NCBI GenBank assembly: GCA_937995515.1
Contig: CALKJZ010000018.1
Span: forward strand, 50,048-114,047
Origin: an uncultured Sphingomonadaceae bacterium
GTDB taxonomy: Bacteria > Pseudomonadota > Alphaproteobacteria > Sphingomonadales > Sphingomonadaceae
Direction of reading: 5' to 3'
DNA length: 64,000 nucleotides
The notes beneath the pieces are model-generated. The model had not been told where the DNA came from. It did not search any database and worked only from the letters and a program-made list of their open reading frames with translations. Position numbers and translations under genes: made by a program. Shown piece by piece: positions 32,228 through 36,496 of this stretch (the first letter of the stretch is position 1; each line of letters begins with the position of its first letter).

Positions 32228-33190
32228 ATGGCCGAGGCTCGGCATGCGCGACTGATCATCATCGGCTCCGGCCCCGCAGGGTATACGGCAGCTGTCTATG
32301 CCGCCCGCGCCGCGCTCGAACCCGTGCTGTTCCAGGGGCTCCAGCCTGGCGGCCAGCTCACCATCACCACCGAGGTGGAAAACTGGCCGGGCGACATCCG
32401 CGTGCAGGGTCCGGAGCTCATGGCCCGCATGGAGGCGCACGCCCGGGCGCTCGGAACCGAGCTCGTGCAGGATATCGTCACCCAGGTCGACCTCGGCCGC
32501 CGCCCGTTCCGTCTCGAGACCGACGCCGGCCAGGCATGGCTTGCCGATGCCCTGATCCTTGCAACGGGTGCGACCGCACGCTGGCTTGGCGTGCCCGGCG
32601 AGGAAGCGCTGCGCGGGCACGGGGTTTCGGCCTGCGCCACCTGCGACGGCTTCTTCTTCCGCAACCGGCGTGTTGCGGTGGTGGGCGGCGGCAACTCGGC
32701 TGCGGAAGAGGCGCTGTTCCTCACCAACTTCGCCGCCGAGGTCACCCTCATCCACCGCCGCGACACGCTGCGCGCGGACAAGACCAACCAGGCGCGGCTC
32801 CTGGCCAGCCCGAAGATCCGGCTGCTGTGGAACCATGTGGTCGAGGAAGTGCTGCCCGATGCCAGCGGGCGCGCCGTCGGCGCGCTTCGCCTGCGCCATA
32901 CGGTCTCGGGTGCGGAACAGCGGCTGGAGGTCGACGGCCTGTTCGTTGCCATCGGCCACGATCCGGCAACCGGGCTCGTCCGCGGCCAGCTCGCCATGGA
33001 CGCAGACGGCTATCTGCTCACCCGGCCCGACAGCACCGAGACCAGCATCGCCGGCGTGTTTGCCGCCGGCGACGTCAGGGACAAGGTGTTCCGGCAGGCG
33101 GTGACCTCTGCCGGCATGGGGTGCATGGCAGCACTCGAGGCGGAGCGCTTTCTTGCCGGGGCAGGCCACGCGCAGGCCAAGGCGGCCTGA
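32228..33190 (+). CDS. trxB: Thioredoxin reductase
   Basis: IIIGSGPAGYTAAVYAARA; CATCDG active site; VVGGGNSAAEEALFLTNFA; GVFAAGDV. Confidence 0.97.
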   Translation: MAEARHARLIIIGSGPAGYTAAVYAARAALEPVLFQGLQPGGQLTITTEVENWPGDIRVQGPELMARMEAHARALGTELVQDIVTQVDLGRRPFRLETDAGQAWLADALILATGATARWLGVPGEEALRGHGVSACATCDGFFFRNRRVAVVGGGNSAAEEALFLTNFAAEVTLIHRRDTLRADKTNQARLLASPKIRLLWNHVVEEVLPDASGRAVGALRLRHTVSGAEQRLEVDGLFVAIGHDPATGLVRGQLAMDADGYLLTRPDSTETSIAGVFAAGDVRDKVFRQAVTSAGMGCMAALEAERFLAGAGHAQAKAA

Positions 33191-33204: not shown

Positions 33205-34122
33205 ATGTTGCAGGACTGGGACAAGCTGCGGCTGTTTCACGCAGTGGCACTCGCCGGCTCGTTCACCGAGGCGGCGCGGCGGCTGCGCATGTCGCAGCCG
33301 GCCCTGTCCCGCCAGATCATTGCGCTCGAGGAGGCGCTTGGCGCCAAGCTGTTCCACCGCCATGCCCGCGGGCTCGCGCTTACCAACGAGGGCGAGCAGC
33401 TGTTCCAGACAACCGCGCAGATGCTCGATTCGCTCGAGCAGGCCCGCGCGCGCATCGAGGCCACCCGCAACCGGCCGACGGGCGAGATCCGCCTGACCAC
33501 CACCGTCAGCTTCGGCTCCACCTGGCTCAGCCGGCAACTGGCCGATTTCCTCGCGCTCTACCCCGATATCCGCGTGAGCCTTCTGCTTTCGGACGAGGAC
33601 ATCGACCTCTCCCGCCGCGAGGCCGACTGCGCGATCCGCTTCCACAAGCCGCACCAGGCGGAAATCGTGCAGCGGCCGCTGGCGCAGATCCGGCACTGGC
33701 TGTGCGCCTCGCCTGCCTATCTCGACCGGCACGGCCGCCCGAGGGCCGCCGAAGACCTGCTCGGCCATCGGCTCATCGCCTATGGTCCGGCCGCGCCGGC
33801 CTATCTGCGCGCGATCAACTGGGTGCTCGAACTCGGCCACGACGGCCCGCCGCGCGAGCCGGTACTTTCGGTCAACAGCAGCATCGGCGTGCTGCAGGCA
33901 GTGGAAAGCGGCGCAGGGATCGCAGCCCTTCCCACCTATCTCATCCAGCAGAGCCGGGGCCGCGTCGAAATTCTCCTGCCGCACGTGGAAGGCGCGGTGT
34001 TCCAGACCTATTTCGCCTATCCGTCGGAGCTGCGCGGTTCAGTCCGCGTCGGCGTGCTGCGGGACTTTCTCGTCGAACGCATGACAACCGCAGCGCTGGG
34101 AGGGCCGCGCCCGCCGATCTGA
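33205..34122 (+). CDS. LysR family transcriptional regulator
   Basis: LRLFHAVALAGSFTEAARRLRMSQPALSRQIIALEEALGAKLFHR. Confidence 0.95.
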   Translation: MLQDWDKLRLFHAVALAGSFTEAARRLRMSQPALSRQIIALEEALGAKLFHRHARGLALTNEGEQLFQTTAQMLDSLEQARARIEATRNRPTGEIRLTTTVSFGSTWLSRQLADFLALYPDIRVSLLLSDEDIDLSRREADCAIRFHKPHQAEIVQRPLAQIRHWLCASPAYLDRHGRPRAAEDLLGHRLIAYGPAAPAYLRAINWVLELGHDGPPREPVLSVNSSIGVLQAVESGAGIAALPTYLIQQSRGRVEILLPHVEGAVFQTYFAYPSELRGSVRVGVLRDFLVERMTTAALGGPRPPI

Positions 34123-34183
34123 GCGGCAGCGCCGCCCCGGCGCCATGCACCTGCTGCATGGCAGATGTCCGGTCATTTCGCAG

Positions 34184-34212
34184 TTGCACAATGACGGCCC
34201 GTGCGCTATCTC
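34184..34212 (+). promoter_or_regulatory. Candidate sigma-70 promoter for a downstream small RNA
   Basis: TTGCAC-N16-CTATCT, the -10 being a 5/6 match to the alphaproteobacterial CTATAT-like element; GTCATT/AATGAC inverted repeat spans the -35. Confidence 0.4.
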
Positions 34213-34214
34213 CA

Positions 34215-34360
34215 CGTTGTTGCTGCACTGCAGCGCGCTCAGTCCGCTCCTTCCTCCCCGGAGTGGTGCTGAAGATCGGCCCCCTTCTCCCTCCCTCCCT
34301 CGAGGGCCGATCAAAATCTGGGCCGGGGTCGAGCGTCGCTCCCCCGGCCCTCTTTTTTTT
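34215..34360 (+). ncRNA. Candidate trans-acting small RNA with CU-rich (anti-SD-like) loops
   Basis: No coding ORF of expected composition; hairpin CTCC-ttcctcccc-GGAG, 9-bp hairpin GATCGGCCC-ccttctccctccctccctcga-GGGCCGATC, then terminator hairpin plus U tract. Confidence 0.5.
34321..34360 (+). terminator. Rho-independent terminator
   Basis: GGCCGGGG-loop-CCCCGGCC followed by TCTTTTTTTT. Confidence 0.85.
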
Positions 34361-34392
34361 GACGCTTTCGGCCTGTAGGCCCAGCCGGGGTG

Positions 34393-34467
34393 GGGCCTGT
34401 AGCTCAACGGTAGAGCTGGCCGCTCATAACGGCTTGGTTGCGGGTTCGAATCCTGCCGGGCCCACCA
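34393..34467 (+). tRNA. tRNA with CAU anticodon (tRNA-Ile2 lysidine type or elongator tRNA-Met)
   Basis: GGGCCTG...CGGGCCC acceptor, D-arm GCTCAACGGTAGAGC, anticodon loop CTCATAA, GGTTCGAATCC T-arm, encoded CCA. Confidence 0.92.
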
Positions 34468-34504: not shown

Positions 34505-36496
34505 TCAGCCGCTACCGTCGCCCGGAGCGGGAGCCACCGGCGACCCGGGCGGGTCGGCGGCCTCCGCAAGGCCCAGATACTGGCGTGCGCCGCGCTGCCA
34601 CATCCGCGCGGTTCCCGGGTCAGGCGCTGGCGCGTCGATGGGGGGCGCGCGCTCCCGCTCCTCGGCGAATCGGGCAACCAGCGCCTCCGGGGTGATGGCC
34701 GCGAGGGCGGCAAAGCTGCCAAGGCCCGCGCGGATGAGCACCAGCGCCTGTGGCCCGGTCATGCCGCGGAGCGTGAGCAGCAGCGCCTGCTGCGCCCATT
34801 CGGCGAGCCGCCGCCGCTCCACGCCGAGGAAGGATTCGAGCCAAACCTGGGCGCGGGCGCGCCCCCCCACCTGCAGATATTCGCCGATCGCGTAGAGGCC
34901 AGCGCGCTCGAACCGCTCGAGAAGGTCGGCGGTCATGCCGGGAAGCACGGCGAGCGGCCGGTCGGGTGCGAACAGGTCGCGGGAAAAGACGCCGGCAAGC
35001 GTTTCCTTGGGCAGGGGCACGAGCTCGAGGCTGAGCCTCGAGATCGCCTCGGGCGCGATCGTCTCTCCCGGCTGCAGGAACCGGTACCCGATCCGCCCGA
35101 GCGGCGAGACCTCGACGGCAACGCCCGCCTCGAGCCGGATCTGGCGCACCGCGAAGTTGGAGGTGGCGTTGCGCATGGCCGCCATGCGCGCCTGCAGCTC
35201 ATCCAGGCTCTGCTGCAGTCCGCTCGCAAAATCCTCCGGTGCGGCGGGTCGTTCGCGCAGGGTCCTCAGCTCCTGCTCGAGCTTCAGGTTCCTCGCCTGC
35301 AGGTCTGTCACCTCGCGGCGGAGCTGGTCGACAATGGCCAGGAGGTTGCGCTTTTCCTCCTCTGACATCGCCGCCTCGCGGCCGCTTGCAATCGGTGTGA
35401 AGAGGCCAAGCACGCCGTCGACCGCCACCACCCGGTCCTGCCCGATCCGGGTGATCGTGCGGGCCTCGATGTGCGGCGCCGGGCGGGGGGCGGGGTCTCG
35501 TGCGGGTTCCACCCCGACCCGGATGGGCCTGCCGTGTGGCCGGCCCGTTTCAGCGTCCCACAGCCGCACGAACCGGTCACGGCCCAGGGTGGCGACGAGT
35601 CGGCCCTGCGGGTCGAAGCTGGCCGCAAGCGCGCCGCCTTCGTGCCTCAGCGTGGCCACCAGATGCGCGCCGTCGCCGGCGAAGATCGAGACCAGCCCGT
35701 CGGCCGTCAGCACAAGCCCACGCCCGGCTGCCGGCGCGGCCCGCACAGCCTGGACAGCCGCACCGGCGTGCAGCGGCTCGGCCCACGCCTCCTCGCCCGA
35801 GGGGAGTTTCCAGGCACGGATGGTGCCATCGCGGCTGCCGGTCAGCAGCAGCTTGCCGGCCGAGATGGCCGCAGTTGCGTGCTTCAGGGCAAGGCCGCGC
35901 GGCTGGTCCTGACCGCGCATGTCGAACAGCTGCACGAGCCCGTCGTCGCCCAGCGTCCACAGGCAGCCGGGCCCGAGGCCGAGATCGAGGACCGGTGCGC
36001 CATGCCGATATTCCGCGCCCAGCCTGCCGCGCCTCAGGTCGAACAGGCGCGCGACCCCGTCTGCTGCGGCGGTGATCACCAGCTCCCCGCGCGCTGCGGG
36101 CGGGGCGAGGATCCGCGTGACCGCCGCCTGGTGCGTCAGCGTCTCCCCTGCCACATCGCCCCTGTCGGCGGAAAAGGCCGAGACATGGTGGTCGGCATCT
36201 GCCACCAGCAGCAGCGTGCCATCCTCGGATGGCTCCGCGTGGGCGAGGCTCCGCCCGTGCGCGACCGTGGCGACCGGCTCGAGACCGGCGCTGTCGAACA
36301 GGTGCAGCCCGCCCGCCGAGGTGGCCGCAAACACCCGCTTGCCGTCGAGGAGGAGGCCGCAGGCAATCGCCCGCCCCTTGAGCGGTTGCGGACCGGCCAG
36401 CCGGGCGCCATCGGTGCCCCATAGCGAGAGCGTGTCGTCGTCGTGGGCGAGCAGCAAGCGCCGGCCTTCCTCGAGGAAGCTGCGGGGAGACAGCAC
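34505..36496 (-). CDS. WD40-repeat / coiled-coil protein with uncharacterized C-terminal helical domain
   Basis: Repeated WD40-like blades (ATLGRDRFVRLWDAETG, LLTGSRDGTIRAWKLPSGE), coiled coil EEKRNLLAIVDQLRREVTDLQARNLKLEQELRTLRE, C-terminal LLERFERAGLYAIGEYLQVGG HhH-like segment. Confidence 0.75.
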   Translation of the reverse strand: MLSPRSFLEEGRRLLLAHDDDTLSLWGTDGARLAGPQPLKGRAIACGLLLDGKRVFAATSAGGLHLFDSAGLEPVATVAHGRSLAHAEPSEDGTLLLVADADHHVSAFSADRGDVAGETLTHQAAVTRILAPPAARGELVITAAADGVARLFDLRRGRLGAEYRHGAPVLDLGLGPGCLWTLGDDGLVQLFDMRGQDQPRGLALKHATAAISAGKLLLTGSRDGTIRAWKLPSGEEAWAEPLHAGAAVQAVRAAPAAGRGLVLTADGLVSIFAGDGAHLVATLRHEGGALAASFDPQGRLVATLGRDRFVRLWDAETGRPHGRPIRVGVEPARDPAPRPAPHIEARTITRIGQDRVVAVDGVLGLFTPIASGREAAMSEEEKRNLLAIVDQLRREVTDLQARNLKLEQELRTLRERPAAPEDFASGLQQSLDELQARMAAMRNATSNFAVRQIRLEAGVAVEVSPLGRIGYRFLQPGETIAPEAISRLSLELVPLPKETLAGVFSRDLFAPDRPLAVLPGMTADLLERFERAGLYAIGEYLQVGGRARAQVWLESFLGVERRRLAEWAQQALLLTLRGMTGPQALVLIRAGLGSFAALAAITPEALVARFAEERERAPPIDAPAPDPGTARMWQRGARQYLGLAEAADPPGSPVAPAPGDGSG

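Follow-up and report, generated by a model that had tools for sequence, protein, structure and literature searches.

The window, by which we mean the whole 64,000-nucleotide stretch of DNA that was analysed, encodes a conserved and previously uncatalogued small RNA (sRNA) that carries two hairpins with CU-rich loops of the anti-Shine-Dalgarno type. Synteny and covariation lend strong support to the proposal of such an sRNA in a preliminary description of the locus, and this function is separate from, and better supported than, membership of any Rfam family. The best explanation of the whole, which we hold to be somewhat more probable than its negation, is that the RNA is an anti-Shine-Dalgarno trans-acting sRNA with a suhB-type promoter that would be controlled by the PhaR regulator and released by polyhydroxybutyrate (PHB) granules.

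How is the locus organized? All features named here lie on the forward strand unless stated otherwise. The ~142-nt candidate transcript would run from its own sigma-70-type promoter, from a start (+1) at about 34219 to 34360; the start is placed by analogy with the promoter spacing of suhB, so that the 5' end is expected near GTTGCTGC. The promoter comprises a suhB-type -35 element, TTTCGCAGTTGCACAA (34176-34191), which encloses the hexamer TTGCAC (34184-34189), and, after a 16-nt spacer, the -10-like hexamer CTATCT (34206-34211), where the relatives are TA-rich at the equivalent place. The region 34219-34362 folds into four hairpins with a free energy of -68.4 kcal/mol. The first is a short 5' hairpin, GCTGC-ACT-GCAGC (within 34219-34236), that was absent from the preliminary description and is the most informative element of the locus; it coincides with an invariant palindrome, TTGCTGCACTGCAGC (34220-34234, no strand assigned), which is a candidate PhaR operator over the start site and could also act as an RNA hairpin. 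CU hairpin 1 (34239-34272) exposes a 9-nt anti-Shine-Dalgarno loop, UUCCUCCCC, on a 12-bp stem with one bulge; its presence had been recognized correctly, while its size had been understated as a 4-bp CTCC/GGAG stem. CU hairpin 2 (34274-34312) has a perfect 9-bp stem formed by GATCGGCCC (34274-34282) and GGGCCGATC (34304-34312) around the 21-nt loop CCTTCTCCCTCCCTCCCTCGA, which contains the anti-Shine-Dalgarno sequence CCUUCUCCCUCCCUCCCUCGA. The intrinsic terminator (34320-34360) consists of a GC-rich stem and U8, and its T8 run (34353-34360) is the only T8 in the window. The TTGCAC-N16-CTATCT promoter, the 9-bp hairpin with its 21-nt loop and the T8 terminator lie where the preliminary description had placed them.

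The sRNA is preceded by a thioredoxin-reductase-like (trxB-like) gene (32228-33190) and a LysR-family regulator gene (33205-34122). Downstream of the terminator, a tRNA with the anticodon CAU (34393-34467) forms a unit of its own and adjoins the sRNA in several, though not all, relatives; it was called tRNA-Met, and we presume from its sequence type that it may be a lysidine-type tRNA-Ile. A reading of the sRNA as a leader of this tRNA was rejected because a terminator separates the two and because several relatives have the tRNA at another place or on the opposite strand. Farther downstream, positions 34505-36496 of the minus strand encode a protein that combines WD40-type repeats with a DUF4332 region at its C terminus and has no counterpart in the relatives' loci examined.

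Orthologues of the sRNA are found in several genera. A DNA search located it beside the same CAU tRNA in four genomes (G001, G003, G011 and G067). A covariance model built from 11 sequences, with G002, G004, G017 and G027 left out of the building, detected the sRNA in all five Thermaurantiacus genomes and in genus g8 (Sandarakinorhabdus/Sandaracinobacter), together with lower-scoring matches in several further genera; several orthologues were thereby recovered from outside the model-building set. A combined promoter and palindrome pattern gave eight matches among 85,462 named species genomes, all of them in Sphingomonadales, and the sRNA is present in all eight. The thioredoxin-reductase-like gene is a conserved neighbour, lying upstream of the sRNA at the loci of 17 of 19 genomes.

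The hairpins covary across the orthologous intergenic regions, a property that had been named as a check on the proposal. With the unrefined MAFFT alignment as input, RNAalifold paired hairpin 1 and the terminator wrongly, and the structure was therefore taken from single-sequence folds and the alignment refitted to it. The resulting alignment comprises 14 orthologues. Pairing is seen in 96.4% of its base-pair cells (80.6% for shuffles), and double changes, on both sides, occur in 25 of the 36 base pairs, a number matched by none of 500 shuffles; these counts are biased towards the assumed structure because the alignment was fitted to that structure. Despite this fitting, the contrast with slid versions is large: shifting the pairing partners by 1-3 columns abolishes the covariation signal. 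The loops stay CU-rich across orthologues, and hairpin 2 retains CUCCCUCCCUCC in all 11 of the first sequences. Given that both the hairpins and the CU loops are conserved in relatives, the proposal survived the test of conservation by which it was to be refuted.

The sRNA shares its promoter with suhB. The aligned sRNA promoters read TTTCGCA[C/G]TTGCACAA, a spacer of ~16-17 nt, a TA-rich -10 region and then GT[T/C]GCTGCNNTGCAGC, and throughout the family TTTCGCA[C/G]TTGCACAA is also the element that lies 35-37 nt 5' of suhB/mmgR. Of the 151 family genomes, 71 contain the 15-mer TTCGCACTTGCACAA, most of them in single copy, and a reversed-pattern control yielded one match in the 151 genomes. 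Among the 88 sites of the 15-mer, 46 are followed at 35-37 nt by a listed suhB/mmgR (RF00519), and five are found 42 nt 5' of the sRNA; further sites include several that precede suhB genes recognized by eye and others that precede unrelated genes. The window copy of the -35 element differs at one position, where it has G instead of C, and TTCGCA[C/G]TTGC occurs only once in the window, at the sRNA promoter. The sRNA promoter is therefore of the suhB type, a shared feature rather than part of a published family definition. In the promoter alignment, G017 and G027 do not retain the -35 element. A second conserved block, tgcatggcag (34155-34164, within 34151-34167), lies upstream of the -35 element, with a consensus of about TGCATRGCTG in the relatives (13 promoters aligned by eye); it is kept even in G017 and G027 and weakly resembles a PhaR half-palindrome. 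A generic scan for sigma-70 promoters and terminators detected neither the promoter nor the terminator of the sRNA, as the scan sets narrow limits on hexamers and loops, and the promoter claim therefore stands on the comparative data.

The promoter looks as if it were switched by PhaR, the sensor of the PHB store. The palindrome contains CTGCNNNGCAG, the published PhaR site of R. sphaeroides, and in S. meliloti PhaR binds and represses the mmgR promoter (PMC12542648, PMC8401924). The two sequence features of a PhaR regulon member, a promoter palindrome of the CTGCNNNGCAG type and a phaR gene in the genome, are both found: phaR is present in all 13 sRNA genomes tested, and a phasin gene in 12. 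By a PhaR matrix that was derived solely from 20 phasin-promoter sites of the same genomes, chosen by the published core pattern, the palindrome is the top site of the window (12.66; runner-up, 7.66) and ranks first in 12 of 13 orthologous loci, whereas the phasin sites themselves score 19-28 and shuffled 64-kb sequences attain the palindrome's score in four of 20 cases. Elsewhere in these genomes the same motif lies upstream of phasin in G001 and, with genes named by eye from their first residues, upstream of a 3-ketoacid CoA-transferase-like gene in G027 and a 3-hydroxyacyl-CoA dehydrogenase-like gene in G130. PhaR bound to the palindrome at the +1 position would repress transcription of the sRNA, and accumulating PHB granules would sequester PhaR and thus free the sRNA. 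We infer this step from the identity of the motif, its conservation and the known biology of PhaR.

Does the palindrome function as DNA or as RNA? The sRNA may be real and PhaR irrelevant to it, in which case the palindrome would act only as a hairpin at the 5' end of the RNA and shield the transcript, a role that the short 5' hairpin of suhB may also have. This alternative is unlikely but should be taken seriously: the palindrome can form a 5-bp hairpin and is placed at the inferred +1 or immediately downstream of it, suhB likewise starts with a short hairpin, and the 5' hairpin of G007 is GCTGC-TTCG-GCAGC, a typical stable RNA tetraloop. However, a stem that acts solely as RNA should covary like the other helices, and none of the five pairs of the palindrome stem varies in the 14 sequences, which makes it the sole helix without variation, as expected of a DNA site. 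Furthermore, the palindrome matches the sites of phasin promoters and of the other PHB-type genes, and G007 has a separate PhaR-like palindrome that lies upstream of its hairpin instead.

The hairpins could also belong to the 3' UTR of lysR or to an RNA processed from the lysR mRNA, given that the element lies ~60 nt after lysR on the same strand and that 3'-UTR CU-loop RNAs are known in R. sphaeroides, namely CcsR (PMC10253847). We consider this origin improbable. The suhB-shared promoter element stands at a constant spacing in at least 12 genomes, and the RNA is conserved where LysR is not: the protein is weakly conserved (43-58% over part of its length), is represented by a diverged homologue at the upstream position in some relatives and is undetected at some loci.

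Exposed C/U-rich loops can, to judge from their sequence, mask ribosome-binding sites, and the two loops of the sRNA would pair with the Shine-Dalgarno regions of several mRNAs and stop their translation, probably with the assistance of Hfq. Alternatively, the loops may bind a purine-rich RNA rather than mRNAs, with the sRNA acting as a sponge or as the target of one; in Caulobacter, the sponge CrfA base-pairs with the CU cores of SisA-D, which are alpha-R8 RNAs (PMC12559287). Such a role is very unlikely here, since no purine-rich partner RNA was identified and since, in the cases tested, NfeR1, SuhB and SisA target the regions where translation starts (PMC7143759, PMC6563040, PMC12559287). 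Finally, high-G+C sequence folds readily, but that the hairpins and the terminator came together by chance and regulate nothing is scarcely credible in view of the fold z-score of -6.06 (none of 200 shuffles is equally stable), the compensatory changes conserved across genera and the uniqueness of the CU-hairpin pair, which makes this the sole 144-nt stretch with at least two CU-loop hairpins on either strand of the window, compared with none of 7983 in dinucleotide shuffles.

To which known family does this anti-Shine-Dalgarno sRNA belong? At gathering cut-offs, an Rfam scan of the window returned tRNAs only. The preliminary description had raised the MmgR/alpha-r8 family, but the window sRNA scores 18.6 bits against the RF00519 (alpha-r8/mmgR/suhB) cut-off of 41, and its relatives score 27.7 (G001), 27.9 (G017) and 25.4 bits (G002), the values for the Thermaurantiacus genomes G001 and G002 being the best RF00519 matches in these genomes. 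Likewise, the RF02344 (ar14) score is 31.1 bits against a cut-off of 58.8, with 33.7-38.9 bits in relatives. Both scores are sub-threshold, and the sRNA is therefore a member of neither ar14 nor mmgR/suhB. Many further low-scoring ar14 matches in relatives were dropped, being antisense or coding by appearance. What holds of the MmgR lead is the promoter of the sphingomonad suhB/mmgR type and the PhaR-like operator. In common with SuhB, MmgR and SisA-D (RF00519), the sRNA has the -35 element, and its spacing to the short 5' hairpin is nearly equal to that of sphingomonad suhB. It also shares with alpha-R8 a CU-rich anti-Shine-Dalgarno stretch and a terminator, and loop 1 (CUUCCUCCCC) has eight contiguous bases of the alpha-R8 core UUUCCUCCCU. 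However, that 10-mer is internal and single-stranded in alpha-R8, on the 3' side of a weak hairpin, whereas loop 1 is held in a closed hairpin; the sRNA has two CU regions in covarying hairpins rather than one single-stranded stretch, and its length is ~142 nt in contrast to 61-77 nt.

The architecture is, though, ar14/cuckoo-like. The sRNA matches positions 1-123 of the RF02344 model, its full length, and has the conserved anti-Shine-Dalgarno loops, hypervariable stems and terminator of NfeR1/Smr14C2 (alpha-r14, RF02344) and the cuckoo family (PMC7143759). It differs from alpha-r14, described as a rhizobial family with three hairpins that each carry a CCUCCUCCC loop, in having two CU hairpins and a different 5' hairpin; exact CCUCCUCCC is in neither window loop, and loop 1 of G001 has CCUCCUCC. 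The CcsR type, also raised previously, did not hold. CcsR1-4 of the Rhodobacter sphaeroides CIN1 locus are likewise CU-loop sRNAs, but their hallmark, an adjacent DUF1127 gene co-transcribed with the array, was absent among the five flanking proteins scanned, and the sRNA has its own suhB-type promoter in contrast to the RpoH promoter of CcsR. None of the findings has a bearing on oxidative stress. The four-copy array of CcsR is also lacking; tandem copies occur only in G085 (L185), where two copies of a related CU-loop RNA lie ~175 bases apart.

On the grounds of its promoter, its layout and its sub-threshold similarity, the sRNA is best seen as a reshaped suhB/mmgR-type gene, or as a gene that acquired a suhB promoter, within the sphingomonad lineages of Thermaurantiacus and Sandarakinorhabdus. 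The CU region of a suhB/mmgR-type gene would have been turned into two hairpins, or the suhB promoter would have been taken over. RF00519 lies above cut-off in 120 of the 151 family genomes and in none of 25 genomes examined more closely, which are sRNA carriers, close kin of carriers or genomes without suhB in a first pass and are thus not independent samples. Strict mutual exclusion of the sRNA and suhB was rejected, since five sRNA-bearing genomes (G191, G007, G017, G195 and G081) still contain suhB-like genes below the cut-off, the majority of them with PhaR-like sites. The genomic positions differ: suhB lies beside a CoA-transferase-like gene in many relatives, and the sRNA lies elsewhere. 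By eye, suhB is divergent to a 3-ketoacid CoA-transferase-like gene at L236, L237, L238, L240, L249, L255 and L259, and at loci of this type a PhaR-like site is often found ~150-180 nt 5' of suhB.

SuhB is the catabolite-repression sRNA of Sphingopyxis granuli; PHB granules raise the transcription of suhB in this species, and the route by which they do so is depicted as unknown (PMC6563040). Titration of PhaR would explain this effect, and palindromes at suhB promoters could account for it. A PhaR-like site is present in S. meliloti mmgR and, with a score above 10 at -20 to +10, in 11 of the 30 suhB promoters examined; suhB/mmgR promoters with PhaR-like palindromes at -10/+1 include L238, L239, L243, L244, L245 and L253, and others with such palindromes are L262, L264, L315-L317 and L321. 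PhaR-like operators at the start sites of the sRNA and of roughly one in three of these suhB promoters provide a directly testable answer on the PHB mechanism. In addition, the sRNA points to a way in which a regulator with a single-stranded CU stretch might be connected to a multi-hairpin RNA of the cuckoo type, a kinship that sequence comparison can hardly settle given the hypervariable stems.

A broader and tentative reading, which we would sooner doubt than accept, is that the output of CU-loop RNA in sphingomonads may be tied to PHB via PhaR in three interchangeable genomic forms. With equal reserve, these would be suhB with a PhaR site, the reshaped stand-alone sRNA and a CU hairpin in the 3' UTR of a PhaR-controlled phasin gene. 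If true, this reading would supply the missing mechanism for PHB-stimulated suhB transcription and would bridge the alpha-r8 and cuckoo/alpha-r14 RNAs in evolution.

The phasin 3' UTRs are a lead outside the main claim. Four weaker model matches lie directly 3' of phasin genes (L186, L187, L190 and L197). A simple rule found a CU-rich-loop hairpin in 27 of 104 sphingomonad phasin 3' UTRs, with at least one positive doubtful by position (G092) and one of the four model matches (G215) missed. For 24 of the positives, the sequence immediately 3' of the stop codon contains the hairpin in 23, compared with 2.5% of shuffles. These hairpins sit between the stop codon and the terminator, differ in their stems and include those at L225, L335, L349, L364 and L367; none occurs in 12 genomes with the stand-alone sRNA. 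They are possibly regulatory RNAs derived from the 3' UTR and co-expressed with phasin. The phasin mRNA as a direct target of the sRNA was unsupported, being a poor predicted target in eight genomes.

Two other RNA-like elements were observed. A match to the Caulobacter sRNA CC2171 (L082:2856-3017; 60.3 bits against a cut-off of 75, E = 3.7e-10) lies ~1.2 kb 3' of the sRNA orthologue. A second CU-rich element, with the loop CCCCCTTT followed by CTCCCTCCCTGAACCCTGGCC and a terminator, is kept in Thermaurantiacus, Sandarakinorhabdus-type and other genomes (L267, L268, L269, L272, L276, L283, L288, L291, L006 and L007).
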